Shown here: piece after piece, positions 1,598 to 48,529 of the stretch
Layout of the letters: each line of letters opens with the position of its first letter
Numbering within the stretch: position 1 is the first letter of the stretch
Assembly: GCA_012514185.1 (NCBI GenBank)
Contig: JAAZAT010000271.1
Coordinates: forward strand, 1-48,563
From: Spirochaetales bacterium
GTDB taxonomy: Bacteria; Spirochaetota; Spirochaetia; Sphaerochaetales; Sphaerochaetaceae
DNA length: 48,563 nucleotides
Direction: 5' to 3'
Notes under the pieces: model-generated
Told to the model about the DNA's origin: nothing
Seen by the model: the letters and a program-made list of their open reading frames with translations, nothing else
Database searches by the model: none
Made by a program: the position numbers and the translations under genes

Positions 1598-1634
1598 ATC
1601 TCGCGATTATAGCAGAATTCAGCAATGATGGCAA
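1598..1634 (-). promoter_or_regulatory. parE promoter, predicted leaderless
   Basis: Reading the minus strand, TTGCCA (1634-1629) and a perfect TATAAT (1611-1606) are separated by 17 nt, and only 8 nt (CGCGAGAT) lie between the -10 box and the ATG at 1597. The expected transcription start therefore falls on or within 1-2 nt of the start codon. Confidence 0.7.
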
Positions 1635-1654
1635 AATAGTCTCATATTTCTCCC

Positions 1655-1683
1655 TTGCGCCGGAGAAATTGCTCGAGTACCCT
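1655..1683 (+). promoter_or_regulatory. Promoter of the YhhN-CorA-GNAT operon, predicted leaderless
   Basis: TTGCGC (1655-1660), a 17-nt spacer and TACCCT (1678-1683) are followed by 6 nt and the ATG at 1690. The -10 box is weak but keeps the key T, A and final T. It is arranged back to back with the parE promoter. Confidence 0.45.
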
Positions 1684-1689
1684 GCACGT

Positions 1690-2286
1690 ATGGATACGAT
1701 ACTTATACTGTATATAACGTTGGCCCTGCTCCATCTGAGTCTGAGGGCTGAAGATTTGAAACGCCTCGGCTCACTGGTCAAGGTTCTCTTGATGCCGATG
1801 CTCATGGTGTACGTACTGAGAAACGGTGCACAGCCTCTTTTGCTCATCTCATTGTCATTTGCAACGTTGGGCGATTATTTTCTCACCGACGGCATCAGGA
1901 GATCCTCCTTCACCCTGGGCATGATCAGCTTCGCCCTTGCACACCTCTTGTACTCCCTGCATCTGTTGCTGCGGCCGCTGCAAATGCCCCGCCTTCTGAT
2001 CGGATCTCTCTTGATGCTCATCCCGATGACCTATCTTCTACTGCTTCTCAAGACATCCCCCGTCAAGCTGCGATATGCCCTCTACGGCCTGAACCTGTTC
2101 ATCATGACAGCCTTGTGCTTCGGCAGTGGTTCGACTCTTGCATCGCTTGGAGCCTTGGCTTTCATCATCTCCGACGGTATGATTGGCATGGAGGCTTTGC
2201 ATCGACGCCGATTCAGCGTCATCACCGAGATGGCCGTCTACATTCTGGCCCAACTGTTGTTGGTGCTGGGTTTTGTGAATTTGTAG
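1690..2286 (+). CDS. YhhN family membrane protein (lysoplasmalogenase-like)
   Basis: This is a 198-residue polytopic membrane protein with about seven to eight hydrophobic segments. Family signs are the acidic residue in a helix (SFATLGDYFL), the repeated helix pairs, and the late helix GALAFIISDGMIGMEAL, whose Ser-Asp pair matches the conserved region of YhhN/TMEM86 proteins. Characterised relatives hydrolyse lysoplasmalogen to an aldehyde and a glycerophospho-base; that activity is a family inference here. I chose the ATG at 1690 rather than an upstream start at 1591, because the longer version would overlap the parE start and add a poorly hydrophobic tail. It opens an operon with corA 8 nt downstream. 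Confidence 0.72.
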   Translation: MDTILILYITLALLHLSLRAEDLKRLGSLVKVLLMPMLMVYVLRNGAQPLLLISLSFATLGDYFLTDGIRRSSFTLGMISFALAHLLYSLHLLLRPLQMPRLLIGSLLMLIPMTYLLLLLKTSPVKLRYALYGLNLFIMTALCFGSGSTLASLGALAFIISDGMIGMEALHRRRFSVITEMAVYILAQLLLVLGFVNL

Positions 2287-2294
2287 GAGAACGC

Positions 2295-3338
2295 ATGCAC
2301 GAAAAAAAAGTATCGCCGCCCTATGCACACAAGAAGAAAGAAGGACTTGCAGCAGGAAGTCTCATCTACGTCGGAGACACCCAGCCCCAACAGACAGCCA
2401 TCCGCACACACATCTATCATGCAGGATCGTATCGGGTGGAGCAAGGATACAAACGTGCCGAGAAGGAGCCTGTGTTGTGGGTGGAGATCACGGGCCTTGA
2501 GGATATCCAGACCATTGTAAAGATTGCCAAAGAGTTCCAGATTGCCAACCTCAGCCTTGAGGATGTATTTTCCACCGACCAGCGTCTGAAACTGGACCAG
2601 TACGACTCCTATCTTTCGGTAACCTTGAGAATCCTGGCTCATCAAGGGACCGAGGAGCAGCAGCTCACCCTCTTTCTAGGCGATGGGTGGTTGCTCTCGA
2701 TTGCAGAGTACAACCACCAGAGCTTCGACGCGGTAATCCGCCAGATATCCTCGGCGACCAAACTGCAGGGTGCCGGCTCCAGCGCCCTGCTGCATGCACT
2801 CATCGACCGGGTGGTCGACCAGTATCTGGTCAAGGCTGATGAGCTGGAGTTGAAAACCGAAAATCTGGAGGAGTTGGTCATAACCAATCCCCAGGAGACC
2901 ACTGCTTCGGTCATCCATCAGCAAAAGGCTGATATTCTGAAGCTGAGAAGAATGACAAACCCATTGAGGGAAATTCTTACCACCCTCATACGGACGGAAA
3001 ATCCCTTTCTGGACCGAAACACGACGTTTTTATTACGGGACGTCTACGACCACGCCCTCTGGCTTGCCGAGGAGTGTGATATGATGCGCGAGACGGTATC
3101 GGGAATCATGGAAGTCTACCTCTCAAGCCTCGATATGAAGATGAACGCCATCATGAAGGTGTTGACCATCATCTCAACCATCTTCATCCCGCTCACCTTC
3201 CTGACCGGCTTGTACGGCATGAACTTCTCCTATATGCCGCTCACTGGTGTGTATTGGGGTTTCTTTGCAATCCTGGTCTGCTGTATTCTGGTTGTCTGCG
3301 GCATGGCCGTCTATTTCAGGAGAAAAAAATGGTGGTGA
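2295..3338 (+). CDS. corA: CorA family divalent cation (Mg2+/Co2+) transporter
   Basis: This 347-residue protein has the CorA plan: a large cytoplasmic N-terminal alpha/beta domain, a long helix (about 200-290), and two C-terminal membrane helices joined by the signature GMN loop (YGMNFSYMP). It should form a pentameric channel for Mg2+ or related ions in the inner membrane. The start at 2295 is supported by an AGGAG site about 5 nt upstream. The short basic C-terminus (RRKKWW) is the usual cytoplasmic tail. The last 10 nt overlap the next gene, so translation is probably coupled. Confidence 0.93.
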   Translation: MHEKKVSPPYAHKKKEGLAAGSLIYVGDTQPQQTAIRTHIYHAGSYRVEQGYKRAEKEPVLWVEITGLEDIQTIVKIAKEFQIANLSLEDVFSTDQRLKLDQYDSYLSVTLRILAHQGTEEQQLTLFLGDGWLLSIAEYNHQSFDAVIRQISSATKLQGAGSSALLHALIDRVVDQYLVKADELELKTENLEELVITNPQETTASVIHQQKADILKLRRMTNPLREILTTLIRTENPFLDRNTTFLLRDVYDHALWLAEECDMMRETVSGIMEVYLSSLDMKMNAIMKVLTIISTIFIPLTFLTGLYGMNFSYMPLTGVYWGFFAILVCCILVVCGMAVYFRRKKWW

Positions 3339-5229: not shown

Positions 5230-5262
5230 TTGCATTATGGATGACCCGTTACCTAGTAAAGG

Positions 5263-5288: not shown

Positions 5289-5310
5289 CGTATGTGGCCG
5301 GGAGGTGTAC

Positions 5311-6578: not shown

Positions 6579-6607
6579 TTGACTGAAGCGTGATGCGAAG
6601 GTATGAT
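6579..6607 (+). promoter_or_regulatory. leuS promoter, predicted leaderless
   Basis: TTGACT (6579-6584), a 17-nt spacer and TATGAT (6602-6607) are followed by 7 nt and ATG at 6615. The two upstream in-frame ATGs (6603, 6606) lie within the -10 box itself, so transcripts from this promoter could not use them. Confidence 0.65.
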
Positions 6608-6614: not shown

Positions 6615-9131
6615 ATGAGCAAATATCCCTTCCATGAAATAGAGACGAAATGGCAACGGTACTGGGACGAGCATCAGAGTTTTGCCGTCACCGAGGATCC
6701 AAGCATCCCCAAGGACAAGCGGGTGTATGTCCTGGATATGTTCCCGTACCCCTCCGGAGCCGGACTGCATGTCGGCCATCCTGAAGGATATACCGCCACC
6801 GATATCTACTGCAGATTCCTCAGGATGAACGGGTACAATGTCCTCCATCCGATGGGATTCGATTCTTTCGGCCTCCCGGCGGAGAACTATGCCATCAAGA
6901 CCGGCACCCATCCAAGGACGACCACCGAAAAGAATATTGAGAACTTCCGCAAACAGATCAAGAGCCTGGGCTTCAGCTACGACTGGAATCGAGAGATTTC
7001 CACCCACAGAAGCGACTATTACCGCTGGACCCAGTGGATTTTCATCCAGCTCTTCAACAAGAATCTTGCCTATGAATCACACACCCCGATCAACTGGTGC
7101 GAGGCATGCAAAACCGGCTTGGCCAACGAGGAAGTGAAGGAAGGCAAGTGCGAACGGTGCGGCACCACGGTGGTTCGCAAGAACATCCGCCAGTGGGTGC
7201 TGAAAATCACCGAATATGCAGACAAGCTGCTTGCCGACCTGGACAGTGTAGACTGGCCGGAGTCGGTGAAGCTCATGCAGCGCAACTGGATCGGGCGCAG
7301 TGAAGGCGCCTCCGTCTTCTTCAAGGTCGATGGGATGGACGCCCAGCTGGAAGTCTATACCACCCGCGCCGATACGCTCTTCGGGGCAACGTACATGGTC
7401 GTCGCTCCTGAGCACCCGTTGGTTGCCCAGCTGACCAAGGCTGAGCAGAAAGAGGCCGTCGAGGAGTATCTTGAGTCAAGCGCACGCAAGAGCGATCTTG
7501 AGAGAACCGACCTTGCAAAAGAAAAAACCGGTGTCTTCAGCGGCAGTTATGCGATCAATCCGGTAAACGGCAAGCTCATTCCCATCTGGGTTGCCGACTA
7601 CGTCTTGATCAGCTACGGTACCGGTGCAATCATGGCTGTTCCCGCCCACGATACCCGCGACTGGGAGTTCGCCAAGAAGTTCGACCTGCCCATCGTCGAG
7701 GTACTCAAGAGCGAAGTCGACGTACAGACCCAAGCTTGGACCGAGGATGGGGTGCATGTGAACAGCGACTTCCTCGACGGCTTGAACAAGGAAGATGCCA
7801 TCAAGACCATGCTCGCTTGGCTTGAGGAGCATAAGCTTGGTTCGAAGGCAGTCAACTACAAGCTTCGCGACTGGATATTCAGCCGACAGCGCTATTGGGG
7901 AGAACCCATTCCCTTGGTGCACTGCCCCACCTGCGGTACGGTTGCCGTTCCTGAGGACCAGCTCCCCCTGCTGCTGCCTGAAGTAAGCAGTTATGAGCCC
8001 AGCGGAACCGGAGAGAGCCCGCTTGCAAAGATTGATGAGTGGGTCAATTGCTCCTGTCCGGTTTGCGGTGGAAAGGCAAAACGTGAAACAAACACCATGC
8101 CCCAGTGGGCGGGTTCCTGCTGGTACTACCTGCGCTATCTCGACCCAGAGAATGACAAGCAGTTCGTCTCAGCCGAGAAGGAAGCATACTGGATGCCCGT
8201 CGACCTCTATGTCGGAGGCGCCGAGCACGCAGTGCTCCACCTGCTGTACGCCCGATTCTGGCATAAGGTCCTCTTCGACCTCGGCCTGGTTTCCACCTCC
8301 GAACCCTTCAAGCGATTGGTCAATCAGGGCATGATCACCAGCTATGCATTCCAACGCAAGGACAAGAGCCTGGTCCCCACCGATATGGTTGAGGAGAAAG
8401 AGACCGATGTCTTTGTCGAGAAAGCAACCGGTGAGGTCCTTGAGCGGGTCATCGCGAAAATGTCAAAGAGCTTGAAGAACGTCATCAATCCCGATGAGAT
8501 CATCAGCGAGTACGGCGCCGACTCGATGCGCATGTATGAGATGTTCATGGGACCGCTTGAAGTTTCCAAGCCTTGGGCTACGACCGGTTTGGTCGGTGTG
8601 TATCGGTTCCTCGACCGCATCTACAGGCTCTTTGAGGAGCGGACCGTCATCGATGAACAGCCTTCGGATGAGTTGAACAGGACACTGCACAAGACAATCA
8701 AGAAGGTGACCTATGATACCAACACCCTGAACTTCAATACGGCGATCAGCCAGATGATGGTATTGGTCAATGAGCTGTACAAGGTCGAAACCCTGCCCAG
8801 GGTGGTGGCCGAGACTTTGGTCAAGCTGCTCGGCCCGTACGTTCCCCACCTTGCTGAAGAGCTGTGGGAGCGCCTTGGCCACAGCGGAGGGCTGTCAACT
8901 GTTGCATGGCCGCAGTTCGTAGAGGAGTTGACGGTCGACAACCAGATCGAGATGGTCTTCCAGGTCAACGGTAAGGTTCGTTCCAAGGTGACGGTTTCCA
9001 AAGGACTTGGCAAGGATGAAGTCCTGGCAATGGCAAAGAAGGATGAGAAACTTGCGAGCTGGCTCGAAGGCAGGACGATCGTCAAGGAGATCGTCGTTGC
9101 CGACAAGCTGGTGAATATCGTGGTAAAATAA
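6615..9131 (+). CDS. leuS: Leucyl-tRNA synthetase
   Basis: This 838-residue class Ia synthetase charges tRNA-Leu with leucine. It carries the HIGH-type motif HVGH (about 52-55), the KMSKS motif (615-619), a CP1 editing domain with [15 protein letters not shown], and Cys pairs of zinc-binding inserts (CEAC/CERC and CPTCG/CPVCGG). The length fits bacterial LeuRS. I chose the ATG at 6615 (MSKYPF) because a promoter -10 box covers the two upstream in-frame ATGs and because the family normally begins close to this point. A GAAGG at 6597-6601 would suit the ATG at 6606 if transcription came through from the preceding gene. A strong terminator follows. Confidence 0.96.
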
Positions 9132-9855: not shown

Positions 9856-11064
9856 CTAGCCGAGCACCTTGGCCAAACCACCCTTGCTTGTCTCCCGATA
9901 GAGGGAGGGAAGTGCCTGCCCTGTTTCCATCATGACTTCGATTACACTGTCAAAGCTTACCTTGTGACGGCCGTCGCCAAGCAGGGCATAGGAACAGTGG
10001 TCGAGCGAGCGCATGGCCGCCAAGGCGTTGCGTTCTATGCAGGGAATCTGGACCAGACCCCGCATCGGATCGCACGTAAGCCCCAAATGATGCTCAAGTC
10101 CCATCTCAGCTGCATACTCGATCTGATGGATGCTGCCCCCCAGAAGATGGGTGGCGGCAGCTCCCGCCATTGCGCAGGCGACACCGATCTCACCCTGGCA
10201 TCCCACCTCGGCACCGCTGATCGACCCATTGGTCTTCACTACATTGCCGATGACACCGGCGGTGAGCAGGGCCCTGAGGATTTTCACCTTGGGCAGCTTG
10301 TACTGCTTTGCCAAGAAGTACAGGACCCCGGGGAGAACCCCGCAACTTCCACAGGTGGGTGCGGTGACGATCAAACCGCCTCCGGCGTTCTCTTCGCTCA
10401 CAGCCAAGGCATAGCTGAGAGCCGAAGCGGTGCTCCCGAGCGGGCCGGAGAACTCGGTTGCCTTGGAGTTGTACTGGCTTGCCTTGCGTGCCAGCTTGAG
10501 TCCGCCGGGAAGGACGCCTTCGGCATCCAAACCGCGTTCCACGGCACTGCTCATGACATTCCAGACTTCTTCCATGTAGGACAGGATTTGTTGACCTTCC
10601 CATTGGACGGCGAACTCCCACAGCTGGAGTCCTTCTTCGGAGCAATACTCGAGTATCTGCTTCATCCTGGAATACTCTTTGGGATAGACACGCTTGGAAG
10701 CCTCTTCCTCGACGCCTTCAATGAGGATCTTCCCGCCGCCCACACTATAGTAGGTCTGCTCATGGGTCACAGTTCCTTGTGCATCATAGGAGCGGATGGA
10801 TAAGGCATTGGGATGAAAGGGTTTCTCGATATCGGGATACCAGACGATCTCGACTTCGCTGCCCTCCTTGGCAAAGACTTCCCGCAGGGCCTTGTCGGTC
10901 AAGTGGCCTTTTCCCGTAGCCGCAAGGCTGCCGTAGAGGTCCGCCTCATACCGTGGCTGATGAGGATGCAACGAAAGAAAATGAGTCGCCGCAGAGCGCG
11001 GTCCCATGGTATGGCTGCTGGATGGGCCGTAGCCGATCCGGAAAAGTTCGCGAAGGGATTCCAT
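9856..11064 (-). CDS. sdaA: L-serine ammonia-lyase, iron-sulfur-dependent, single chain
   Basis: This 402-residue enzyme should deaminate L-serine to pyruvate and ammonia with an oxygen-labile [4Fe-4S] cluster. The N-terminus has the family motif GPSSSHTMGP, then the beta domain; the catalytic alpha domain follows with TAPTCGSCGVLPG, NGSISGAEVGCQGE, GLTCDPMRG and QIPCIERN. The Cys residues in the last three motifs are the expected cluster ligands. Both domains sit in one chain. The ATG at 11064 has no Shine-Dalgarno site and a candidate promoter (TTCCCT, 17 nt, TAGAGT) ends 6 nt upstream, so it may be transcribed alone as a leaderless mRNA even though it follows the lipoprotein gene by only 43 nt. 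Confidence 0.93.
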   Translation of the reverse strand: MESLRELFRIGYGPSSSHTMGPRSAATHFLSLHPHQPRYEADLYGSLAATGKGHLTDKALREVFAKEGSEVEIVWYPDIEKPFHPNALSIRSYDAQGTVTHEQTYYSVGGGKILIEGVEEEASKRVYPKEYSRMKQILEYCSEEGLQLWEFAVQWEGQQILSYMEEVWNVMSSAVERGLDAEGVLPGGLKLARKASQYNSKATEFSGPLGSTASALSYALAVSEENAGGGLIVTAPTCGSCGVLPGVLYFLAKQYKLPKVKILRALLTAGVIGNVVKTNGSISGAEVGCQGEIGVACAMAGAAATHLLGGSIHQIEYAAEMGLEHHLGLTCDPMRGLVQIPCIERNALAAMRSLDHCSYALLGDGRHKVSFDSVIEVMMETGQALPSLYRETSKGGLAKVLG

Positions 11065-11070: not shown

Positions 11071-11099
11071 ACTCTATCGGTTTATCCATAAAAAGGGAA
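11071..11099 (-). promoter_or_regulatory. sdaA promoter candidate, predicted leaderless
   Basis: On the minus strand TTCCCT (11099-11094), a 17-nt spacer and TAGAGT (11076-11071) are followed by 6 nt and the ATG at 11064. The -35 box is imperfect, so this is one of the weaker members of the leaderless set. Confidence 0.4.
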
Positions 11100-12386: not shown

Positions 12387-14297
12387 TTACAAGTTTGAGG
12401 TGAACGTCCCCAGAACCCGCACCGAAAGGCAGAGCTCGGACAGTTCAGCCAATGCAACATCGAAGGCACCGCTTTCCCCGAGTTCGGTCTCGACGAAGAA
12501 CGAGTACTCCCAAGGCTTTCCGGGTATCGGACGGCTCTCCAGCTTCTTCATGTTCAGGCCATGCTTGGTCAAGACCAACAAGGCGGCGAACAGGGAGCCT
12601 GGACGGTCGGGAACAGTGAACCGCAACGAGGCACGGTTTACGGCCGAAGTCGACCGGAAGACTGCGCTGCGCTCCTCACGGCAAATGATATAGAAACGGG
12701 TGTAGTTGCGGGGGTTGCTTTCAATGCCCTCGGCCAGGATCTCCATGCCATACACCTTTGCAGCCGGAGCTCCGGCGATGGCGGCCTTGGCGGGATCCTT
12801 TGCCTCCTTGACATAGGCTACCGCACCGGCCGTATCGAAGAAGGGGGTGGCCTGGGCATGGGAAATATCATGCTGCAGATACTCGGTACATTGTGCCAAT
12901 CCCTGCGGATGGGAGTAGACCTCCCTGATATTCTCCTTCTTTGAACCAGGAAGTCCGATGAGGTTGTGGATGATCCTGATCTGCTGTTCCCCAACCACCT
13001 GGATGGCCTGATGCCGGTCAAGCAAATCCAGATTCTCATAGATGGTGCCGCCAAGTGTGTTTTCCAGAGGAATCATGCCATAGGCGGCCCTGCCCTGCAG
13101 CACCGCCTCGAACACATCGGAGAAGGACTTGCAAGGAAGGACATCGGTGGACTCGTCGAACGCCCTGCGGATGGCAAGCTCGCTGTACGCACCACGCTCT
13201 CCTTGGAAGGCAACAACCAGCTGGTCGGTAGCAACTGAAGGCCCCTTGTTCAGGCTCAGGGCTTCAGGCAGGATGCGAGGGATGCGTTCCAAGGATTTGC
13301 CGACAACCGCACTGAGGGCCTGCAGGTCGCGCATCAGTTTCTCAAACTGGGAGGGATAGAGGGACTGGGGACCGTCGCTGAATGCTTTTTCAGGATTATC
13401 ATGCACCTCGACGATCAAGCCGGAGGCTCCGCCGGCGATCAAGGCAAGGCTCATCGGGCTTACCATATCCCTCAAGCCGGTTGCATGGCTGGGATCGCCA
13501 ATGACCGGAAGGTGGGTCATTTTTTGTACAACGGGTATGGCCGAGACATCCAGGGTGTTGCGGGTGGCCCGCTCATAGGTGCGGATGCCGCGCTCGCACA
13601 ATACAACCTGGTCGGTTCCACTGGCCATCAGGTATTCAGCTGCCATCAGCCACTCTTCGATCGTGGCGCAAAGTCCCCGTTTGAGCAGTACCGGCATGCC
13701 GGTCTTCCCGACTGCCTTAAGCAGTTCGAAATTCTGCATGTTCCTTGCACCGATCTGGAACATGTCGATATACTTGGTCATCATGGGGGCATCGGAGGGG
13801 TTGACGATTTCGGTGGTAACCGGCATGCCGTACTTCTCCCCCGCTTCCTTGAGGTACTTCAAACCCTCTTCCCCCAACCCTTGGAAAGCATAGGGGCTGG
13901 TTCGGGGCTTGAAGGCGCCGCCGCGAAGAATCACGGCTCCTGCTTCCCGCACCGAGGCGGCGATGCTCATGATCTGCTCCCGGGACTCAACCGCGCAGGG
14001 CCCTGCTATGATTGCAATACGATTTCCGCCGATCTTCACCTTGCCGACGGTGACAATGGTATCTTCTTTCTTCAACTCACGCGAAGCAAGTTTATACGGT
14101 TTGCTGATGGGTACGACATTGGCCACTCCCTCAAGCAACTCAACTTCACGAATATCAAGGGTGCTCTGGCCGACTGCGCCGAAGACAGTCTCTTCCTGCC
14201 CAACGATTTCCTTGACGGTGTAGCCCTTTTCAACCAGAAAGGACCTGATCGACTCTTTCTGCAGTTCGCTGATTTGTTTTTTCAGTACGATTATCAT
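12387..14297 (-). CDS. Fused DAHP synthase / prephenate dehydratase
   Basis: One 636-residue chain joins two enzymes of aromatic amino acid synthesis. Residues 1-85 form the ferredoxin-like regulatory domain of Thermotoga-type DAHP synthase; 90-340 form the catalytic barrel (IAGPCAVES, GGAFKPRTSPYAFQG, EIGARNMQN-like IGARNMQN, DPSHATG), condensing PEP with erythrose 4-phosphate. From about 365 comes prephenate dehydratase (VAFQGERGAYSELA, IPLENTLGGTI, and the catalytic TRF in NYTRF), which makes phenylpyruvate. The end (560-636) is an ACT domain with PGSLF and LESRPIPGK, expected to bind phenylalanine. No chorismate mutase domain is visible between the two halves. The ORF is continuous with no sign of frameshift. 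It starts an operon and has a leaderless-type promoter. Confidence 0.92.
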   Translation of the reverse strand: MIIVLKKQISELQKESIRSFLVEKGYTVKEIVGQEETVFGAVGQSTLDIREVELLEGVANVVPISKPYKLASRELKKEDTIVTVGKVKIGGNRIAIIAGPCAVESREQIMSIAASVREAGAVILRGGAFKPRTSPYAFQGLGEEGLKYLKEAGEKYGMPVTTEIVNPSDAPMMTKYIDMFQIGARNMQNFELLKAVGKTGMPVLLKRGLCATIEEWLMAAEYLMASGTDQVVLCERGIRTYERATRNTLDVSAIPVVQKMTHLPVIGDPSHATGLRDMVSPMSLALIAGGASGLIVEVHDNPEKAFSDGPQSLYPSQFEKLMRDLQALSAVVGKSLERIPRILPEALSLNKGPSVATDQLVVAFQGERGAYSELAIRRAFDESTDVLPCKSFSDVFEAVLQGRAAYGMIPLENTLGGTIYENLDLLDRHQAIQVVGEQQIRIIHNLIGLPGSKKENIREVYSHPQGLAQCTEYLQHDISHAQATPFFDTAGAVAYVKEAKDPAKAAIAGAPAAKVYGMEILAEGIESNPRNYTRFYIICREERSAVFRSTSAVNRASLRFTVPDRPGSLFAALLVLTKHGLNMKKLESRPIPGKPWEYSFFVETELGESGAFDVALAELSELCLSVRVLGTFTSNL

Positions 14298-14303: not shown

Positions 14304-14332
14304 ACGCTAGAGCGTAACCATAAAAAGGTCAA
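14304..14332 (-). promoter_or_regulatory. Promoter of the DAHP synthase/prephenate dehydratase gene, predicted leaderless
   Basis: On the minus strand TTGACC (14332-14327), a 17-nt spacer and TAGCGT (14309-14304) are followed by 6 nt and the ATG at 14297. There is no Shine-Dalgarno site and no room for a leader-peptide attenuator. Confidence 0.55.
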
Positions 14333-14339: not shown

Positions 14340-14368
14340 TTGCTTTTTTTGTTATGGCATGGTAGGTC
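14340..14368 (+). promoter_or_regulatory. nth promoter, predicted leaderless
   Basis: TTGCTT (14340-14345), a 17-nt spacer and TAGGTC (14363-14368) are followed by 7 nt and the ATG at 14376. No Shine-Dalgarno site is present. Confidence 0.45.
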
Positions 14369-14375: not shown

Positions 14376-15038
14376 ATGAATGAACAGTATTGGGATAGTA
14401 TTTTTGAACAATTCAGAAAAGCCATAGAAGCTGAAGGACAGATACTGCCCTCCGTCTCCATCATCGCCCAGCGGGAGCACGACCCCTTCCGGGTTCTGAT
14501 CGCCACCCTCATCTCACTGAGGACCAAGGATGAGGTCACCCTTGCAGCGAGCCAACGGCTCTTTGCCCTGGCCGGTGATCCCTATGCCATGGCCGGCCTC
14601 TCCGAAGAAGCCATCGAGCAGGCCATCTATCCTGCCGGGTTCTATAAAACAAAGGCAAGAAACATCCGCCTGATTTCAGAAATCCTGATAGCACAATTCA
14701 ATGGCAGGGTTCCAGACACTCGAGAACAGCTGCTTGCACTGCCGGGAGTGGGAATAAAGACCGCAAATCTCACCTTGAATCTGGGATATCAAATTGATGC
14801 CATTTGTGTGGACTGCCATGTGCATCAGATCGCCAACCGTCTTGGCTGGGTGCAGACAAAAACACCCGAGCAGACAGAAATAGCCTTGCAGCATGTCATG
14901 CCCAGGCGTTTCTGGATACCGCTGAATGAACTCTTGGTGCGATATGGCCAGCTGATCTGCACACCGGTCAGCCCTTTCTGCAGCAAATGTCCACAGGCTG
15001 AACGCTGTCCCAAAATCGGGGTGGTGCGCAGCCGCTAA
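14376..15038 (+). CDS. nth: Endonuclease III (DNA glycosylase/AP lyase)
   Basis: This 220-residue HhH-GPD enzyme removes oxidised pyrimidines and cuts the abasic site. The helix-hairpin-helix LPGVGIKTAN supplies the catalytic Lys, and VDCHVHQIANRL supplies the catalytic Asp (usual form VDTHV). The C-terminal [4Fe-4S] loop has the exact C-x6-C-x2-C-x5-C spacing (CTPVSPFCSKCPQAERC). The length is typical. The stop codon interlocks with that of metF on the other strand (shared bases 15036-15037). Confidence 0.94.
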   Translation: MNEQYWDSIFEQFRKAIEAEGQILPSVSIIAQREHDPFRVLIATLISLRTKDEVTLAASQRLFALAGDPYAMAGLSEEAIEQAIYPAGFYKTKARNIRLISEILIAQFNGRVPDTREQLLALPGVGIKTANLTLNLGYQIDAICVDCHVHQIANRLGWVQTKTPEQTEIALQHVMPRRFWIPLNELLVRYGQLICTPVSPFCSKCPQAERCPKIGVVRSR

Positions 15039-21467: not shown

Positions 21468-21496
21468 TTGCATGCCTCCCGTATTGTCCGTATGAT
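21468..21496 (+). promoter_or_regulatory. pth promoter, predicted leaderless
   Basis: TTGCAT (21468-21473), a 17-nt spacer and TATGAT (21491-21496) are followed by 6 nt and the ATG at 21503. No Shine-Dalgarno site is present. The -10 box lies inside a 13-bp palindrome. Confidence 0.65.
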
Positions 21497-21502: not shown

Positions 21503-22033
21503 ATGGTAAAGCTTCTGGTATTTCTGGGCAACCCTGGCAAGGTGTACGCCAAAACACGGCACAATGTCGGCTGGATGGTTGCCGAACATCACTATCCGCA
21601 CGCAAGCTGGAGCGAGAAGTTCCATGGCCTGGTGAGCCTTGACAACTCGACCAGGCTGCTCAAGCCCACCACGTACATGAATGAAAGCGGCAGGTCGGTC
21701 CGTGCTTGCATGGATTTCTACGGATATGCCATTGATGAGATTTTGGTCATCCATGACGATCTGGAGCTGGGGTTCGGTACTGTGCGGCTGCAACAAGGCG
21801 GGGGACTGGGAGGACACAACGGACTCAGGTCAATCAAGACGCATACCCAAAGCGACCAGTTTCTCAGGCTGAGAATCGGTATCGGCAGACCGATGCACGG
21901 CTCGGTTGCTTCCTTTGTACTGGAGCGGTTTACCCAGGAGGAAGAGATTTCCTTGCCACTGGTGATCAATCTTGCAGTAAGAATGCTCACAGACACATAT
22001 TCTTCTCTTCCGGTAACAAATACATTAGTCTAA
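21503..22033 (+). CDS. pth: Peptidyl-tRNA hydrolase
   Basis: This 176-residue enzyme releases tRNA from stalled peptidyl-tRNA. All four active-site elements are present: the catalytic His in RHNVGW, Asn in KPTTYMNESG, Asp in IHDDLEL and Asn in GGLGGHNGLRS. The first residues (VKLLVFLGNPGKVY) match the usual start, so ATG 21503 is well supported despite the missing Shine-Dalgarno site. The protein is slightly shorter than the common 185-200 residues. Confidence 0.94.
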   Translation: MVKLLVFLGNPGKVYAKTRHNVGWMVAEHHYPHASWSEKFHGLVSLDNSTRLLKPTTYMNESGRSVRACMDFYGYAIDEILVIHDDLELGFGTVRLQQGGGLGGHNGLRSIKTHTQSDQFLRLRIGIGRPMHGSVASFVLERFTQEEEISLPLVINLAVRMLTDTYSSLPVTNTLV

Positions 22034-25478: not shown

Positions 25479-25529
25479 AAAGCGACGTTTGATTGACTTG
25501 CTGCATCTGATAAGATACTCTTGGATGGT

Positions 25530-28716: not shown

Positions 28717-28742
28717 GAGGACGAAGAGAGCTCTTCGTCCTC
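28717..28742 (+). other. Intercistronic hairpin between dctP and dctQ
   Basis: Twelve bases from 28717 (GAGGACGAAGAG) pair perfectly with 28731-28742 (CTCTTCGTCCTC), separated by only two bases, so in practice about 11 bp close a 4-nt loop. No T run follows, so it is unlikely to be a full terminator. Such hairpins often protect the 3' end of the binding-protein mRNA and so raise its level over the permease. Confidence 0.75.
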
Positions 28743-28766
28743 TGCATATCAATGATTGGAGGAATC

Positions 28767-29270
28767 ATGCATACATTCAATCGAATTATGGACCAGATGG
28801 TGAAAGGAATTTCAATCATTACCAGGCTGCTGATGATTGCCATGATTGTAGTCGTTTTCTCTGCAGCCATCGGAAGAACGCTCAATATTTCCTTTCTTTG
28901 GTCGAACGACCTGAGCCTTTTGCTCTTCGCCTGGTTCTGTTTTCTGGCAATCAGCCTTGCTTCATACCGCCAGACGCACCCTCTGGTGGATTTGCTGATC
29001 GAACGAATTCCCTTGTGGGCGAAAGTACCCCTCAAACTTGTTCATTTCATTCTCATCATCGGGTTCTTGTCCATTATGTTAGTCTATACCATCAAATATG
29101 CATTTGCCAACAGAATGACTACCATCACCACCTTGAAAATCAGCTTTCTTTGGGTCAGCACCAGCGGCATTGTCGGATTGACTTTGACGACTTTCTTTGA
29201 GGTCATGCATCTGATCAAGTATCTGATCGCTCTTTTCACAAGAGACAACAGCGTCAAGCAAGGAGCATAG
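28767..29270 (+). CDS. TRAP transporter small permease (DctQ family)
   Basis: This 167-residue protein has four predicted membrane helices, as expected for DctQ, with the characteristic LWSNDLSLLLFAWFCFLAISLA segment after helix 1 (here quoted only to locate it, residues about 38-59) and a HPLVDLL turn. It couples DctP to the large permease DctM. I start at ATG 28767, which has GGAGG 4 nt upstream; the GTG at 28707 directly after the dctP stop would translate the hairpin and is rejected. The dctM gene follows after one nucleotide. Confidence 0.88.
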   Translation: MHTFNRIMDQMVKGISIITRLLMIAMIVVVFSAAIGRTLNISFLWSNDLSLLLFAWFCFLAISLASYRQTHPLVDLLIERIPLWAKVPLKLVHFILIIGFLSIMLVYTIKYAFANRMTTITTLKISFLWVSTSGIVGLTLTTFFEVMHLIKYLIALFTRDNSVKQGA

Positions 29271-35087: not shown

Positions 35088-36857
35088 TTACAGCCTTGCG
35101 GTGGCTCTCTCCAGGTATGGGAGAGCTGCGGCATCCACCAGATCCTTCAATTCTGCATAGACCCATTGGTGGTAGGCATCCACCATGGCAACTTCCGCCT
35201 CGGTAAGCAGATTCTTGTCTATCAATGTGCGTTCAAACGGACAGATGGTCAAGACTTCAAAGCTCAGGAACTGCCCGAATTCAGTTTTCACATCCTCTTT
35301 GATTGCAAGGATGTTCTCAATGCGGATGCCGTGTCGGCCTTCCTTGTAGACTCCCGGTTCATCGCTGACGATCATACCCTTCTTCAGCGGTACGGCAAGC
35401 GGTTTTGGACTGATTGAATGAGGCCCCTCATGGACACAGAGCCGGAACCCCAATCCATGGCCGGTGCCGTGGAAGTAACTCAAGCCCTGCTGCCAGAGGA
35501 ACTGCCTTGCAAGCACGTCCAGCTGATACCCGCAGGTTCCCTCCGGAAAACGTATGTTTGCAAGCGCAAGGTTGCCTTTCAGTACCAAGGTATAGTCGCG
35601 TTTCTGCTCCTCGGTGGGGCAGCCGAAGAGAATGGTCCTGGTCACATCGGTAAGGCCGAAGGTGTACATCCCGCCGGTGTCGAGGACAAGCAGGCCGTTG
35701 CCCGCTACCGTTGCATTGCTCTTCTCATCGGCACTATAGTGGCACATCGCCCCATGAGCGGCCCAACCGCTGATCGGGGAGAAAGACTCTCCGATGCAGT
35801 GTGTACTCCGCTGCCGCTGCTCTTTAAGCATATCGCTCAGCTCGATCTCCGTATACCTGCCGTTTTGCGTATCCAGGGAAGCAAGGAAATTCACCAAGGC
35901 AACACCATCGAGCAGATGGGCCTTTCTCATCCCTTCCAACTCGGTCTCGTTCTTGCAAGCCTTCAGGTCGGTTGTGATATCACGCCCGCCTACGGTCTTG
36001 TTTGCACTGAACGTTGCGAAAAGCAGAAGGTTGGTTTTCTCGGGATTATAATAGATGACATCATCGGCCTTGAACAGCTCAGAAAGGGTGGAGACCACCG
36101 CTTCATAGTCTAGAATCTCAAAATCCGAGGAGACCAAGCTCTTGGTTTCTGCATCAAAACGACCTGGATTGGTGAACAGCCAGGCCTGCTGCCTGCCGAC
36201 AACCAAATAGGAGAGGAACACCGGATTATAGGAGATATCGGAGCCCCTGAGATTGGTAATCCAGGCGATGTCGTCAAGAGAGGAGATGACGGTATAGTCA
36301 CACCCTTTTTGGGCCATGGCCAGACGCACCATGGTAAGCTTCTGGATGGCACTGAATCCTGCAATGTCGTTGGGAACCGAAACCACCTTGTTTGAAGGAA
36401 CGGCAGGTCTGTCGAGCCAGATGGCATCCAGAAGGTCGGATCTGGGGACCACCTCCAGCTTTCCGGCAAAAGCAGCCTCCATCGAGGCCTTGGCGGAGAC
36501 GGTGAGGGTCGCACTGTCGATGCCGACCCTGCTCCCTTCCGAGAGCTGTTGTCCAAGGTAGGCATAGGGATCGGGATACGAAGGAGTGTCGACTTTCATC
36601 ATGACAAACTCACTGACTTCTATCTGCTGCTGAGCCTGGATGAAATACCGCGAGTCGACCCACAAGAGAGCAGCGTCCTTGGTGATGACCACCGTTCCGG
36701 CGCTTCCGGTAAAGGAACTGATCCACTGTCGGCTCCTGTATCGTGTACACACATATTCACTTTGATGGGGATCGGTTCCATTGATGATCCATGCATCAAG
36801 ATCATGCTTTTCAAGAAGGGATCGCAGCTGTGCGACCCGTTTATCCATGTGAGACAT
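35088..36857 (-). CDS. Xaa-Pro aminopeptidase (M24B, aminopeptidase P family)
   Basis: This 589-residue protein belongs to the large three-domain aminopeptidase P type: two creatinase-like N-terminal domains (about 1-310) and a pita-bread catalytic domain. The dinuclear metal ligands are present in order: Asp in VLDTGGMY, Asp in LTDVTRT, His in GTGHGLG, Glu in SDEPGVY and Glu in RIENIL. It should remove N-terminal residues next to proline in the cytoplasm. ATG 36857 has AAGGAG 6 nt upstream; its first 17 nt overlap the end of lgt. Confidence 0.92.
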   Translation of the reverse strand: MSHMDKRVAQLRSLLEKHDLDAWIINGTDPHQSEYVCTRYRSRQWISSFTGSAGTVVITKDAALLWVDSRYFIQAQQQIEVSEFVMMKVDTPSYPDPYAYLGQQLSEGSRVGIDSATLTVSAKASMEAAFAGKLEVVPRSDLLDAIWLDRPAVPSNKVVSVPNDIAGFSAIQKLTMVRLAMAQKGCDYTVISSLDDIAWITNLRGSDISYNPVFLSYLVVGRQQAWLFTNPGRFDAETKSLVSSDFEILDYEAVVSTLSELFKADDVIYYNPEKTNLLLFATFSANKTVGGRDITTDLKACKNETELEGMRKAHLLDGVALVNFLASLDTQNGRYTEIELSDMLKEQRQRSTHCIGESFSPISGWAAHGAMCHYSADEKSNATVAGNGLLVLDTGGMYTFGLTDVTRTILFGCPTEEQKRDYTLVLKGNLALANIRFPEGTCGYQLDVLARQFLWQQGLSYFHGTGHGLGFRLCVHEGPHSISPKPLAVPLKKGMIVSDEPGVYKEGRHGIRIENILAIKEDVKTEFGQFLSFEVLTICPFERTLIDKNLLTEAEVAMVDAYHQWVYAELKDLVDAAALPYLERATARL

Positions 36858-37797
36858 GCAAGGCTCCTTTTTTGTGCAAAACAAGTGCGAAGATGATGCC
36901 ACTGATTATCATGGCAAGGCAGAAGAGCTGCCCCATGGAGAAGTTGAAGAAGGATTGGAACAAGGCAATGTTGTCCGACTGTCTGCCCAATGCAAGAATA
37001 TACCCGAGGTTCTCGTCAGGGGAACGGAAGTACTCGATGAAGAACCGAACCGTCCCGTACCCGATCATATACCAAGCCAGTCCCATGCCGGCTTTCAGGT
37101 TCTTTTTCCTGCGTATGACAAACCATAAAAAGAGAAAGAGCAGAATTCCTTCAAACAGGGCTTCATACAACTGGCTGGGATGTCGGGGCAGGTTTACCAG
37201 GCTTCCACTCTGATACGCGATGCCAAGCGAATCGGCAAGATTCCGGACCCACTCATAGTTTGTTGAGAAACGGGGCGCATCGGGAAAGATGACGGCCCAT
37301 GGCCTTGTTGAAACACGCCCGAACAGTTCGCCGTTGATGAAGTTTCCCAACCGTCCGAAGGTATAGCCTAAGGGCGCGGCGTAGCTGACGGTATCGGCGA
37401 TGCTGAGGAAGGAGAACCGGTATTTGCGGCTGAACAACCAGCCGCCGAGAATGGCGCCCACCAAGCCTCCATGGTAGCTCATACCCGGCAAACCGACAAA
37501 CCGGCCGTCCCTGAACGGCCAGAAAATCATCCAAGGATGAGTCCAGTAATAGGTGGTTCCATCATAGAACAAAACAGAAAAGAGCCTGGCTCCAACGACC
37601 AGACCAACAACACAATAAAGCACAAGATTCAGGCTTTGGTCGGCATCGAGGTCGATATCTCCCCTTCGTGCCTGGAGACGGATCATCAGGTAGGCAAAAC
37701 TGAAGGCCACCACGTACATCAGACCATACCACCGCAGGGGCAAGCCGGGGATGATTTGTGGCGAAATCCAGCTGGGGAACGAGATGAATTGTGTCAT
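36841..37797 (-). CDS. lgt: Prolipoprotein diacylglyceryl transferase
   Basis: This 318-residue inner-membrane enzyme attaches diacylglycerol to the lipobox Cys of prolipoproteins, the first step for lipoproteins such as those at 11108 and 27702. It has about seven membrane helices and both family signatures: GRLGNFINGELFGR, with the essential Arg-Asn-Gly region, and HPSQLYEALFEGI. ATG 37797 lacks a Shine-Dalgarno site and has a promoter ending 6 nt upstream. It is the first gene of the lgt-pepP-gpmI-AKR operon. Confidence 0.95.
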   Translation of the reverse strand: MTQFISFPSWISPQIIPGLPLRWYGLMYVVAFSFAYLMIRLQARRGDIDLDADQSLNLVLYCVVGLVVGARLFSVLFYDGTTYYWTHPWMIFWPFRDGRFVGLPGMSYHGGLVGAILGGWLFSRKYRFSFLSIADTVSYAAPLGYTFGRLGNFINGELFGRVSTRPWAVIFPDAPRFSTNYEWVRNLADSLGIAYQSGSLVNLPRHPSQLYEALFEGILLFLFLWFVIRRKKNLKAGMGLAWYMIGYGTVRFFIEYFRSPDENLGYILALGRQSDNIALFQSFFNFSMGQLFCLAMIISGIIFALVLHKKGALHVSHG

Positions 37798-37803: not shown

Positions 37804-37832
37804 AGTGTAATGTGCTGTAAGAGTGTGGTCAA
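37804..37832 (-). promoter_or_regulatory. lgt operon promoter, predicted leaderless
   Basis: On the minus strand TTGACC (37832-37827), a 17-nt spacer and TACACT (37809-37804) are followed by 6 nt (TGCCCC) and the ATG at 37797. Confidence 0.65.
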
Positions 37833-37861
37833 TACTACAAAACCTAGCCGTTTCCTCTCCA

Positions 37862-37879
37862 ATACTGTATATTCAGTAT
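37862..37879 (+). promoter_or_regulatory. Dyad and possible -10 box directly before the S41 protease start
   Basis: ATACTG (37862-37867) and CAGTAT (37874-37879) are inverted arms around TATATT, and the ATG follows at once. TATATT could serve as a -10 box 6 nt before the ATG, but no convincing -35 element is seen. The dyad may instead be a regulator site. Confidence 0.4.
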
Positions 37880-39310
37880 ATGAGAAGAACCATTATACGC
37901 AGGCTTAGCCTTAGTTTCATAGTATTGCTGATTTTCCTGCCCCTGTTCGCAGGTGGTTCAATGGAGCAGATTCTTGCGGCTCCGCTTTCCACCCGTACAA
38001 GCATGGAAGCAGACCAGATTACTATCGATATGGCCTCGCTGGAACGGCTGTACCGATATGTCGATTCAATCTACATCGATGAGGTCGACAAGCAGAAGAT
38101 GTTCAACGACCTTGCTTCCGCCCTCGTCGCATCCCTGGACGACCCCTACTCCTTCTATGTTCCGCCCTCCAAGGCACAGGAGTACCAGGAAGAAACCAGC
38201 GGGGTATATGGCGGCATCGGGACCTATCTGAACAAACCCGCCCCAGACAACATCGACCCCTCCGTACCCTCCACGTATATGATCACCATCGTCTCGCCAT
38301 TCCCCGGATCTCCGGCTCAGAGGGCAGGGTTGATGGCAGGTGATTTGATCAGTCACATCGATGGGGAGAAGGTGGATGAACTGACCAGTTATGAAGCGAG
38401 CATGAAGCTCAGGGGAGAGGCAAACACCTTGGTAACCATCACGGTCTACCGCAATGGGACCTCCTTTGATTTGACGCTCCGACGGGAAAAGATCACCGCC
38501 CCTACAGTCGACAGCGCAGTCATTGAGGGAAACATCGGGTACATCATTCTCTCTGAATTCACCCCCCAAACCGGCAATCAACTGCTCGAACACGTGCAGA
38601 AGTTGTTGAAACAGGGTATCGTCGGCCTGATCATCGATGAGAGGAACAATTCAGGAGGGGCTGTGGACGGGGCCATGCAGTCGGCGAACATCTTCCTTGC
38701 GGAGGGCAAGACGCTGGTAACCATCCAGGGCAAGAAAGGCACCATGCGCGATCAACGGTATATATCCACCGGAAACGCAGAAGTACCTGCAAACCTTCCC
38801 ATCGTCATCCTTACCAATACCGGCTCTGCTTCCTCCGCCGAGATCTTTGCCGCCGCCATGAAGGACAACGGCAGGGCCACCCTCATCGGGACGAAGACGT
38901 TCGGCAAGGGTATCGTGCAGGATGTGTTCCGTTTCGGTTCGGGCTTCGCCCAGGTGACGACGGCACATTACTACACCCCCAACGGAGAGAACATCCACAA
39001 GCTGGGAATCGAGCCGGACATAGTGGTCGAGGATGTGCAGCTTTCGGATGAGGAGATTCCAGCCTTTGAGCAGTTGATGACCGACAAGGTGATCAGCTCC
39101 TATGTGCAGGAGAATCCAGAGCCGAGTGAGGAGAACATCCGCCGCTTTGCCGGGCTGTATACTGAACGAGGAATCGACGAGGAAGTGCTGACGCTGCTCG
39201 TTCGCAACGAGTATCTGTCCAAGATGCCCTATGACAAGCGACCCATCGCCGATGCCACCTTCGACAAGCAGCTCAATCGCGCAGTTCAGTACATCAGGAC
39301 TGGGAAATGA
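37880..39310 (+). CDS. S41 family C-terminal processing peptidase
   Basis: This 476-residue periplasmic protease begins with a signal anchor (MRRTIIRRLSLSFIVLLIFL), followed by a Ctp N-terminal region, a PDZ domain (about 95-200, SPAQRAGLMAGDLISHIDG) and the S41 catalytic domain. The catalytic Ser lies in NTGSASSAEIF and the Lys in GTKTFGKGIVQ. It should trim the C-termini of secreted or envelope proteins. I start at ATG 37880, since the GTG at 37823 would add a non-signal-like stretch. It overlaps rsmE by an ATGA. Confidence 0.9.
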   Translation: MRRTIIRRLSLSFIVLLIFLPLFAGGSMEQILAAPLSTRTSMEADQITIDMASLERLYRYVDSIYIDEVDKQKMFNDLASALVASLDDPYSFYVPPSKAQEYQEETSGVYGGIGTYLNKPAPDNIDPSVPSTYMITIVSPFPGSPAQRAGLMAGDLISHIDGEKVDELTSYEASMKLRGEANTLVTITVYRNGTSFDLTLRREKITAPTVDSAVIEGNIGYIILSEFTPQTGNQLLEHVQKLLKQGIVGLIIDERNNSGGAVDGAMQSANIFLAEGKTLVTIQGKKGTMRDQRYISTGNAEVPANLPIVILTNTGSASSAEIFAAAMKDNGRATLIGTKTFGKGIVQDVFRFGSGFAQVTTAHYYTPNGENIHKLGIEPDIVVEDVQLSDEEIPAFEQLMTDKVISSYVQENPEPSEENIRRFAGLYTERGIDEEVLTLLVRNEYLSKMPYDKRPIADATFDKQLNRAVQYIRTGK

Positions 39311-43854: not shown

Positions 43855-44067
43855 TTATGCAACATTGATGCGGTGTGCCAAACCACGATTAAGGGCAAGG
43901 CGAACGCCTTTGATGGAGAGGATAAGACCCTGATTGCTGTTGCCGATAATCTGCACGATTTGTCCTGAAACGAAACCCATGTCCAGCAGATGCTGCTTGG
44001 TCGTGTCGTCACCCTGCAAGGAAAGCACCTTGCGAGTTTCTCCAGCTTGGGCAAAGGAAAGGGGCAT
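43855..44067 (-). CDS. feoA: FeoA family protein (promoter-proximal copy)
   Basis: This 70-residue FeoA-like protein (MPLSFAQAGETRKVLSLQG, then HLLDMGFVSGQIVQIIG and KGVRLALNRGLAHRI) is clearly homologous but not nearly identical to the next FeoA, so the pair is an old duplication or two specialised partners. It is the first gene of the feo operon; GGAGGA lies upstream of ATG 44067, next to the operator-like dyad. Confidence 0.88.
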   Translation of the reverse strand: MPLSFAQAGETRKVLSLQGDDTTKQHLLDMGFVSGQIVQIIGNSNQGLILSIKGVRLALNRGLAHRINVA

Positions 44068-44081
44068 ACTGAATCCTCCAC

Positions 44082-44099
44082 AGTTAGCTATTGCTAACT
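44082..44099. promoter_or_regulatory. Dyad at the feo operon promoter, copy 1 of the feo operator candidate
   Basis: AGTTAGC (44082-44088) and GCTAACT (44093-44099) are perfect 7-bp arms around TATT. The dyad begins just after the predicted transcription start of the feo operon and ends 14 nt before the first feoA codon, a typical position for a metal-dependent repressor such as a DtxR-family protein. Confidence 0.7.
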
Positions 44100-44108
44100 T
44101 TCAGATAC

Positions 44109-44138
44109 TTTATACCGCTCCATTGTCCTGGTTGTCAA
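44109..44138 (-). promoter_or_regulatory. feo operon promoter
   Basis: On the minus strand a perfect TTGACA (44138-44133), an 18-nt spacer and TATAAA (44114-44109) place the start near 44102, at the edge of the dyad at 44082-44099. Confidence 0.75.
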
Positions 44139-45672: not shown

Positions 45673-45681
45673 AACTCTTCA

Positions 45682-45710
45682 AGAATAGCACATGCATGAG
45701 AAACCGACAA
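45682..45710 (-). promoter_or_regulatory. Diguanylate cyclase promoter, nearly leaderless
   Basis: On the minus strand TTGTCG (45710-45705), a 17-nt spacer and TATTCT (45687-45682) are followed by 9 nt and the ATG at 45672, leaving a leader of only 1-3 nt. Confidence 0.5.
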
Positions 45711-45729
45711 CGCAAGAAAAGCTCCTGCA

Positions 45730-46101: not shown

Positions 46102-46129
46102 CGGATGGAAATCGAGGCAAATTCATGAT

Positions 46130-47419: not shown

Positions 47420-47437
47420 CGCCGCCCCCTTGCTGTC

Positions 47438-47466
47438 ATCCTACCCTTGAGACATCACTTTCGCAA
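47438..47466 (-). promoter_or_regulatory. murA promoter
   Basis: On the minus strand TTGCGA (47466-47461), a 17-nt spacer and TAGGAT (47443-47438) are followed by 18 nt and the ATG at 47419. This leaves a leader of about 11 nt with an AAGGGGG ribosome-binding site, so murA is not predicted to be leaderless. Confidence 0.5.
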
Positions 47467-47474
47467 GGTCATTG

Positions 47475-47504
47475 TTGTATTGCATGCATCAGCGATGATA
47501 GAAT
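47475..47504 (+). promoter_or_regulatory. PfkB kinase promoter, predicted leaderless
   Basis: TTGTAT (47475-47480), an 18-nt spacer and TAGAAT (47499-47504) are followed by 8 nt and the ATG at 47513. It lies back to back with the murA promoter. Confidence 0.5.
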
Positions 47505-47512
47505 GGCAGTAC

Positions 47513-48529
47513 ATGGACAAGATGCAGCACATGGTATATGGAATAGGAAATCCTCTCATCGACATCATCGTAAGCGTTGATGAGCAGGACATCATCGACT
47601 TGGGTATTCACAAGGGCACCATGGCGCTCATTGGCAGAGAGCGTATGGAGGAGTTGCTGCAACTGAGCAAGCAACGCAAGACCACCTACTCATGCGGAGG
47701 TTCCTGTCCCAACACCATCATCACCTTGGCTTCCTTGGGAGTACCTGCAACCTTGGCCGGCAAGATCGGCAACGACGAGAACGGCACCATGTATCGCAAC
47801 AGGCTGACAAGCCTTGGGGTGCAGGATGAGTTGGTCACCACGGACAAGGAGATGACCGGATCCACCGTCATCCTCATTACCCCCGACAGCGAACGCAGCA
47901 TGAATACCTTTCTTGGAGCCAACCGACTCTATGAGGAGGCCGATGTCTGTGAAACTACGGTTGCCGCTGCAGGCTTCTTTCATTTCACCGGGTACATGTG
48001 GGACACCCAAAGCCAACAGGGAGCCATCAGGAAAGCCCTTTCCATCGCCAAGAAAAACAACACCATCGTCTCGTTCGACCTTGCCGACCCGTTTGCCGTA
48101 GGACGATACCGCGAGCCCTTCCTCTCGTTGATCAAGGAGAGCTGCGACATCGTATTTGCAAACCGGGAGGAGGCACGCATCCTGTTCGACAACTACGACC
48201 CCTATGAATGCTGCCGCTCGATGGGAAAGCTTTGCCGAACCGCCATCGTAAAGAACGGGAAAAAGGGTTCCTACATCTGCCACGATGGTGTCATAACCGC
48301 CATTCCGGTGAAAGGCCCGGTAGTACCGGTAGACACCACCGGTGCCGGGGATGTCTACGCCGCAGGCTTTTTGTACGGTCAGTACCACAAAGCATCCATC
48401 CAGGATTCAGGCATCATCGCATCGATCCTTGCCGGTGAGATCATCACCCAGCGAGGGGCTCAATTCAGTAAAGAGAAAGCACAGGAACTGAGAAACCTGC
48501 TCGAGTCAGGTGCGTGGCGTTCGCTGTAG
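47513..48529 (+). CDS. PfkB family carbohydrate/nucleoside kinase
   Basis: This 338-residue ribokinase-fold enzyme has the N-terminal GIGNPLIDII strand, the substrate-lid region SCGGSCPNTIITLASLG, and the C-terminal PfkB signature VDTTGAGDVYAAGFLYG with the catalytic Asp in GAGD. The NPLIDI opening and GGSxxNT motif are closest to adenosine-kinase-like members, but ribose, fructose or another nucleoside cannot be excluded. Three in-frame ATGs (47513, 47522, 47531) precede the conserved VYGIGNP; I use 47513 because a promoter -10 box ends 8 nt before it and none has a Shine-Dalgarno site. The last 34 bases of the window after this gene hold nothing I can call. Confidence 0.85.
   Translation: MDKMQHMVYGIGNPLIDIIVSVDEQDIIDLGIHKGTMALIGRERMEELLQLSKQRKTTYSCGGSCPNTIITLASLGVPATLAGKIGNDENGTMYRNRLTSLGVQDELVTTDKEMTGSTVILITPDSERSMNTFLGANRLYEEADVCETTVAAAGFFHFTGYMWDTQSQQGAIRKALSIAKKNNTIVSFDLADPFAVGRYREPFLSLIKESCDIVFANREEARILFDNYDPYECCRSMGKLCRTAIVKNGKKGSYICHDGVITAIPVKGPVVPVDTTGAGDVYAAGFLYGQYHKASIQDSGIIASILAGEIITQRGAQFSKEKAQELRNLLESGAWRSL

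Follow-up and report, generated by a model that had tools for sequence, protein, structure and literature searches.

A minority of genes in a Sphaerochaeta-like spirochaete are predicted to produce leaderless transcripts

The 48,563-nt contig JAAZAT010000271.1 of the Spirochaetales bacterium assembly GCA_012514185.1, analysed at its full length and referred to here as the window, contains a series of genes with -35/-10 promoter sequences directly before their start codons. We consider it very likely, from the DNA of this Sphaerochaeta-like genome and its relatives, that a minority of transcripts are leaderless and arise from promoters 6-8 nt before the ATG, with the other starts led by Shine-Dalgarno (SD) sites. 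We propose that the housekeeping RNA polymerase would bind a promoter with -35 and -10 boxes, in most cases 17 nt apart, the -10 box ending 6-8 nt before the ATG; that RNA would begin at the A of the ATG, with a pyrimidine-purine initiator step; and that the ribosome would initiate on the bare 5ʹ AUG without an SD site. The remaining first genes and most downstream genes would use a leader and an SD site. The DNA itself shows the layout of the promoters, with the statistics and conservation of that layout, and the absence of an SD site. From these we infer the transcript 5ʹ end, the type of sigma factor and leaderless translation.

Promoter boxes before divergent genes

Gene-level counts are from a sample of the genome, 44 stretches from 40 contigs that exclude the window ("unseen contigs"), and from 400 kb of Sphaerochaeta halotolerans. 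Genes were called with a home-made caller that chose starts by coding signal and start-codon type and never used upstream sequence. We classed them as divergent or, where the upstream neighbor is on the same strand, as internal (gap of 30 nt or less), mid (31-99 nt) or far (at least 100 nt), and scored SD presence in our own-genome class counts by a 4-mer rule. Sixteen further stretches, from contigs of the same genome picked for promoter-pattern matches, were excluded from the main counts; they enter a 66-gene count of -35 positions, a 68-gene count of the base at -1, some of the orthologue pairs, and matrix training.

In the unseen contigs, a TAnnnT box ends 5-7 nt before the start of 20 of 78 divergent genes, compared with 3 of 131 internal genes (p = 3e-7), 6 of 41 mid genes and 1 of 35 far genes. 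A sequence-only reading of the window, which first described the pattern, had suggested a scan for the -10 motif against shuffled upstream regions, and had held that the motif should not be equally common before operon-internal genes. Both expectations are borne out: local shuffles of the 78 divergent upstream regions gave a mean of only 4.5 matches (standard deviation 2.0, maximum 12 in 1000), and the internal genes almost lack the box. The commonest box-to-start distance in this genome is 6 nt. This is close to the usual distance from the -10 box to +1.

The position of the -35 element is similarly constrained. Among the 20 box-bearing divergent genes, an unbiased set, TTG lies at a spacer of 17 nt in seven and 18 nt in three, and at 15, 16, 19 or 20 nt in none. 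In the 66-gene set, which includes contigs picked by a TTGAC pattern, 28 genes have a spacer of 17 nt, five have 18 nt, and no other spacing occurs more than three times.

We then scored each gene start, together with decoy anchors 12-44 nt upstream of it, with a weight matrix trained on other sequence and a threshold of 6. This held-out test detected 23 of 88 divergent genes (decoys 4.4%), ten of the 88 being window genes; without the window the count was 18 of 78 (decoys 4.7%), and in S. halotolerans it was 20 of 86 (decoys 4.3%). Internal genes passed in 3 of 146 cases in the window's genome and 0 of 80 in S. halotolerans. For all classes together the counts were 31 of 323 and 24 of 292, or roughly 8% and 5.5% after decoy subtraction. 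With decoys subtracted, we put genes of the predicted leaderless type at about 19-22% of the divergent class and at roughly 5-8% of genes overall. Roughly a fifth to a quarter of genes that open divergent transcripts appear, on these counts, to be leaderless.

Sites in the window

Because its leuS protein is 84% identical to that of S. halotolerans, and 75-81% identical to those of other Spirochaetales or Sphaerochaetaceae metagenome-assembled genomes (MAGs), we take the source of the window, one contig of a 2.76-Mb, 315-contig assembly, to be a Sphaerochaeta-like spirochaete. The gene names that were checked are consistent with Pfam (YhhN, CorA, LeuS, serine dehydratase, DAHP synthase-prephenate dehydratase, the HhH-GPD repair protein encoded by nth, peptidyl-tRNA hydrolase, Lgt, PfkB, MetH, an HcyBio protein, DctQ, FeoB, phosphoglycerate mutase and M24 peptidase), and in the parE fragment of 532 aa there are matches to DNA gyrase B and Toprim domains. 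The HcyBio protein is the product of what had been named the DUF39 gene, DUF39 being an older name.

The sequence-only reading listed nine σ70-type promoters, and all nine hexamer pairs, spacers and distances to the ATG are present in the window exactly as given. Eight of the nine score at least 6, the pass mark, on a -35/-10 weight matrix trained on S. halotolerans, the pattern-picked contigs and the window, so that the scores of window sites are slightly circular; the ninth, nth, scores 2.4 and is the one case in which the promoter assignment is not upheld. The nine sites, followed by two absent from the earlier list, are:

1606-1634, minus strand: parE promoter; -35 TTGCCA (1634-1629), 17 nt, -10 TATAAT (1611-1606), ATG at 1597 8 nt on; score 13.1; same geometry in S. 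halotolerans
1655-1683, plus strand: promoter of the yhhN-like gene; TTGCGC-17-TACCCT, ATG at 1690 (6 nt); score 11.6
6579-6607, plus strand: leuS promoter; TTGACT-17-TATGAT, ATG at 6615 (7 nt); score 12.8
11071-11099, minus strand: sdaA promoter; TTCCCT-17-TAGAGT, ATG at 11064 (6 nt); score 9.4; at least 6 in 6 of 8 orthologue loci
14304-14332, minus strand: aroF-pheA promoter; TTGACC-17-TAGCGT, ATG at 14297 (6 nt); score 14.1
14340-14368, plus strand: claimed nth promoter, weak; TTGCTT-17-TAGGTC, ATG at 14376 (7 nt); score 2.4; at least 6 in 1 of 7 orthologue rows
21468-21496, plus strand: pth promoter; TTGCAT-17-TATGAT, ATG at 21503 (6 nt); score 10.7
37804-37832, minus strand: lgt promoter; TTGACC-17-TACACT, ATG at 37797 (6 nt); score 14.0; hexamers identical in S. 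halotolerans (14.0)
47475-47504, plus strand: PfkB kinase promoter; TTGTAT-18-TAGAAT, ATG at 47513 (8 nt); score 7.1; TTGAAT-18-TAGAAT-8 in S. halotolerans (9.4)
25493-25521, plus strand: promoter of the SDF symporter gene; TTGACT-17-TACTCT, ATG at 25530 (8 nt); score 12.9
37845-37873, plus strand: S41 peptidase gene; TATATT 6 nt before ATG at 37880, weak -35 TAGCCG; score 6.2; hexamers identical in S. halotolerans

The low score of nth is due to the hexamer TAGGTC, which lacks the final T; a CATGGTAG stretch at this gene is common to the window, S. halotolerans and one related MAG (L005). The leuS -35 box starts 3 nt past the end (6576) of the upstream same-strand gene. For aroF-pheA, 8 of 9 orthologue rows score at least 6, two rows being one S. 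halotolerans locus. The pth -10 box TATGAT is preserved in S. halotolerans, 7 nt from the start (score 7.2). Among the loci searched, the yhhN-like gene had no orthologue with an alignable start.

Conservation and the likely first base of the RNA

Comparison with S. halotolerans gave 57 reciprocal gene pairs with the same start register; in 11 of them the gene from the window's genome is leaderless-like. Each of these 11 retains both boxes in S. halotolerans with a score of at least 7.9, ten at equal distance and one shifted by 1 nt; three of these pairs come from contigs picked for the promoter pattern, and S. halotolerans genes were part of the training of the scoring matrix. When the 11 pairs are aligned on the ATG, identity in the box columns is 0.64-1.0, compared with a mean of about 0.46 for the spacer core (-28 to -21). 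No comparable rise at -35 is seen in 11 SD-led first-gene pairs.

The base at -1, which played no part in selecting leaderless-like genes, is a pyrimidine in 64 of 68 of them; among 243 SD-led first genes the share is 65% (p = 6e-7). The same bias is found in the unbiased own-genome set plus the window (25 of 28 versus 66% of 77 SD-led genes, p = 0.025) and in S. halotolerans (22 of 23 versus 61% of 104, p = 0.001). Since the -1 position favors a pyrimidine and the -10 box is 6-8 nt away, the simplest reading is that the A of the ATG would be +1, with a pyrimidine-purine initiator.

Alternative explanations

Could the promoters be genuine, with translation starting at codons farther downstream and the mRNAs having normal short leaders? 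Start calls are predictions, and our caller did misplace lgt (at 37719) and leuS (at 6606). However, protein conservation of sdaA, aroF-pheA and leuS begins at or beside the ATG, and a downstream in-frame start with a 5-mer SD occurs within 23 codons in only 3 of 68 leaderless-like genes, a frequency similar to that among SD-led first genes (12 of 243). The peak in box-to-start distance at 6 nt also argues against displaced starts, and we consider this explanation improbable. A second possibility, that the AT-rich box is an unstructured tract or a binding site for ribosomal protein S1 that aids initiation, with no promoter involved, draws on an AT bias that the cited portions of one study treat as a known alternative reading in bacteria (PMC5397173). 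It is very improbable: a TTG is set 17 nt from the box, the -35 element is conserved and the spacer is not, and the box is rare before internal genes. Least probable of all, and barely credible, is that degenerate motifs were matched by chance and chosen by eye; certain boxes are weak when taken singly and nth falls below the threshold, but the pattern is replicated in unseen contigs and stands up to shuffles, decoys, orthologues and a Bacillota control.

For leaderless transcription from these promoters, several observations count on the negative side or limit the evidence in favor. Box-bearing divergent genes have an SD site in 0 of 20 cases in the window's genome (versus 39 of 58 other divergent genes) and in 1 of 14 in S. 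halotolerans, which speaks for the leaderless reading, but the absence is partly forced since the -10 box occupies the SD position. All 66 of 66 leaderless-like starts are ATG, which is no independent evidence given that the caller favors ATG. In S. halotolerans, TAnnnT at 5-7 nt precedes 14 of 86 divergent genes against a shuffled mean of 6.4 (standard deviation 2.4, maximum 14), only a modest excess; the count is 22 of 86 at 5-8 nt, and the signal in this species needs the -35 box or a distance of 8 nt. Mid-gap genes pass the held-out matrix in 4 of 49 cases in the window's genome (decoys 1.6%) and in 2 of 50 in S. halotolerans (decoys 2.7%), hardly any excess in the latter, and far same-strand genes show none (1 of 40 with decoys 2.5%, and 2 of 76 with decoys 3.5%, respectively). 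Finally, the 3ʹ end of 16S rRNA, with the anti-SD sequence, was not found: there are six GGNTCACCTCC matches in the assembly, and the two loci checked match no rRNA family.

Shine-Dalgarno sites and operon position

The sequence-only reading had suggested two translation-start modes split by operon position. The leaderless-type class itself stands as described, with a candidate σ70-type promoter, mostly 17-nt spacing, no SD site, and geometry preserved in orthologues, and it is far commoner at divergent genes than at internal genes. The split, however, is only a tendency. Half of the divergent genes in the unseen contigs (39 of 78) are SD-led, and far same-strand genes, many of which would be expected to be first as well, are at decoy level. 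The seven internal genes named as SD-led (corA, metH, the DUF39 gene, dctQ, feoB, gpmI and pepP) do have SD sites, with dctQ starting at 28767 and pepP at 36857, but that list was selective: 8 of 15 internal genes in the window pass the 4-mer rule. Outside the window, 91 of 131 internal genes pass. Furthermore, leuS and sdaA are leaderless-like though they lie 38 nt and 43 nt behind same-strand genes.

Two predicted start modes at leuS

The leuS start was readable at 36 of 38 loci, in a survey that could move it to the best-scoring ATG within 21 nt and so favored promoter detection. Seventeen loci have the leaderless geometry without an SD site, 16 have an SD site without such a promoter, three have neither, and none has both. 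The leaderless-like loci include all four with Sphaerochaeta or Sphaerochaetaceae in their titles, whereas the 12 readable Treponema-titled loci comprise 11 that are SD-led, one with neither and none that is leaderless-like. Where the upstream neighbor is visible, the gap is at most 72 nt in 9 of 14 leaderless-like loci, with the other five at 114-581 nt, and it is 105-592 nt in 11 of 11 SD-led loci. The start mode of leuS follows lineage and, more loosely, the length of the gap. The SD-led copies are those with room for a leader, opposite to the expectation under a rule by which first genes are leaderless.

The leuS of one contig in this survey, titled Pyramidobacter sp. C12-8, shares 68% identity with that of the window, within the range of Treponema-titled loci, and the contig is possibly mislabelled or contaminating. 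It is counted among the 16 SD-led loci and was excluded from the gap comparison.

Distribution across Spirochaetota

We scanned genomes for TTGAC-18-TAnnnT followed by ATG after 6-7 nt, with ATG after 11-12 nt as the control. A reversed-pattern control was too easy since it destroys the promoter itself, and the shifted-ATG control and a GTA control were added. In five whole genomes of the genus, there are 131 matches with ATG at 6-7 nt, 29 with ATG at 11-12 nt and 49 with GTA at 6-7 nt; these are the five genomes common to all three counts, one of which had covered seven. The 36 genomes of the window's family give 441 versus 122. Eight families were summed (160 of 392 genomes, a sum that leaves aside the large family f3 and many small families), and seven of these have ratios of 2.8-5.6 to 1. 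The eighth, f5, has 91 versus 138 (0.66); its genomes are 0.9-1.9 Mb, with a G+C content of 0.29-0.30 at two loci, and we infer that it is Borreliaceae.

Among named genomes, the counts at 6-7 versus 11-12 nt are 141:37 for six Sphaerochaetaceae-like genomes, 71:33 for five Treponema and 100:99 for ten Bacillota. These groups hold 21 of the 25 genomes counted; the four ungrouped genomes have 35:18 (L027), 38:9 (L032), 36:1 (L036) and, in a member of the Myxococcales, 3:6 (L078). We see an even chance that leaderless promoters are of old origin, occur widely in Spirochaetota and are kept at the same orthologues within a family, that leuS switches cleanly between leaderless and SD-led starts, and that f5 has lost the mode. 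Two spirochaete genomes, G138 and G163, are rich in the pattern, with 157 and 96 matches versus 22 and 34 with the shifted ATG.

Relation to known leaderless systems

Leaderless starts in spirochaetes are already known, and the Sphaerochaeta-like genome would be a further case, a placing well supported by its sequence, with a comparative twist at leuS. In the portions cited here, a survey of RefSeq genomes of 2010 predicted leaderless genes preceded by a TA-type signal in 6 of 18 Spirochaetes genomes, at a mean of 3.9% (1.8-6.9%) of genes (Zheng et al. 2011, PMC3160421). Its TAnnnT/TAtaaT-type box before the start resembles ours, and our all-gene estimates are near its predicted range; the present analysis adds, for the Sphaerochaeta group, the -35 box and its spacing, the initiator base and the conservation in orthologues. 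In Leptospira interrogans, a spirochaete that is distant within the phylum, differential RNA-seq mapped about 440 mRNAs with leaders shorter than 10 nt, 170-184 of which begin exactly at the start codon (PMC5243855); here, leaderless mRNAs are predicted from DNA. The passages of that study drawn on here identify no motifs beyond RpoN sites, whereas a σ70-type motif is clear in our data. The same source gives 1174 leaderless mRNAs for Deinococcus deserti and 505 for Mycobacterium tuberculosis, many and mapped by RNA, in contrast to the predicted set of the Sphaerochaeta-like genome. Genomes in which leaderless transcripts occur beside SD-led genes, as predicted here, are common among bacteria according to the cited part of work that describes GeneMarkS-2; leaderless transcription is predicted there for 21.6% of bacterial species (PMC9581028). 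A search of a library of PMC papers found no report joining "leaderless" and Sphaerochaeta, and the one paper there that mentions the genus together with transcription start sites is, by its title, on Campylobacter CRISPR. GeneMarkS-2, reportedly described by Lomsadze in 2018, is said to model mixed leaderless/SD genomes under the label "group C".

What would be the significance of leaderless transcripts in this group? If our reading is correct, annotation of gene starts in Sphaerochaeta and its relatives errs wherever a tool demands an SD site, and regulation through a 5ʹ untranslated region would be impossible on the leaderless transcripts of these genes. The switch at leuS would also offer two naturally occurring starts of a single essential gene, with which the costs and benefits of both initiation modes could be tested.

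Other features of the window

Two sites in the window illustrate starts with SD sites, the first as an operon-internal contrast and the second, read by eye, as a counter-example at a first gene:

28758-28769, plus strand: dctQ; SD GGAGGA (28758-28763) before ATG at 28767
44065-44138, minus strand: first feoA-like gene; TTGACA (44138-44133), 18 nt, TATAAA (44114-44109), SD GGAGG (44079-44075), ATG at 44067

Directly before the dctQ SD, between dctP and dctQ, is an inverted repeat with 12-bp arms (GAGGACGAAGAG/CTCTTCGTCCTC, positions 28717-28742), possibly a processing or attenuation hairpin.

The first feoA-like gene has a promoter-like site with room for a leader, whose predicted length is roughly 35 nt. 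It is one of two short open reading frames upstream of feoB that we call feoA-like from their position and the look of their sequence. A near-identical inverted repeat, AAAGTTAG[C/T]AATAGCTAAC, occurs on the minus strand at 44101-44083, before the first feoA-like gene, and at 43582-43564, before feoB, and may be an iron-regulator operator.

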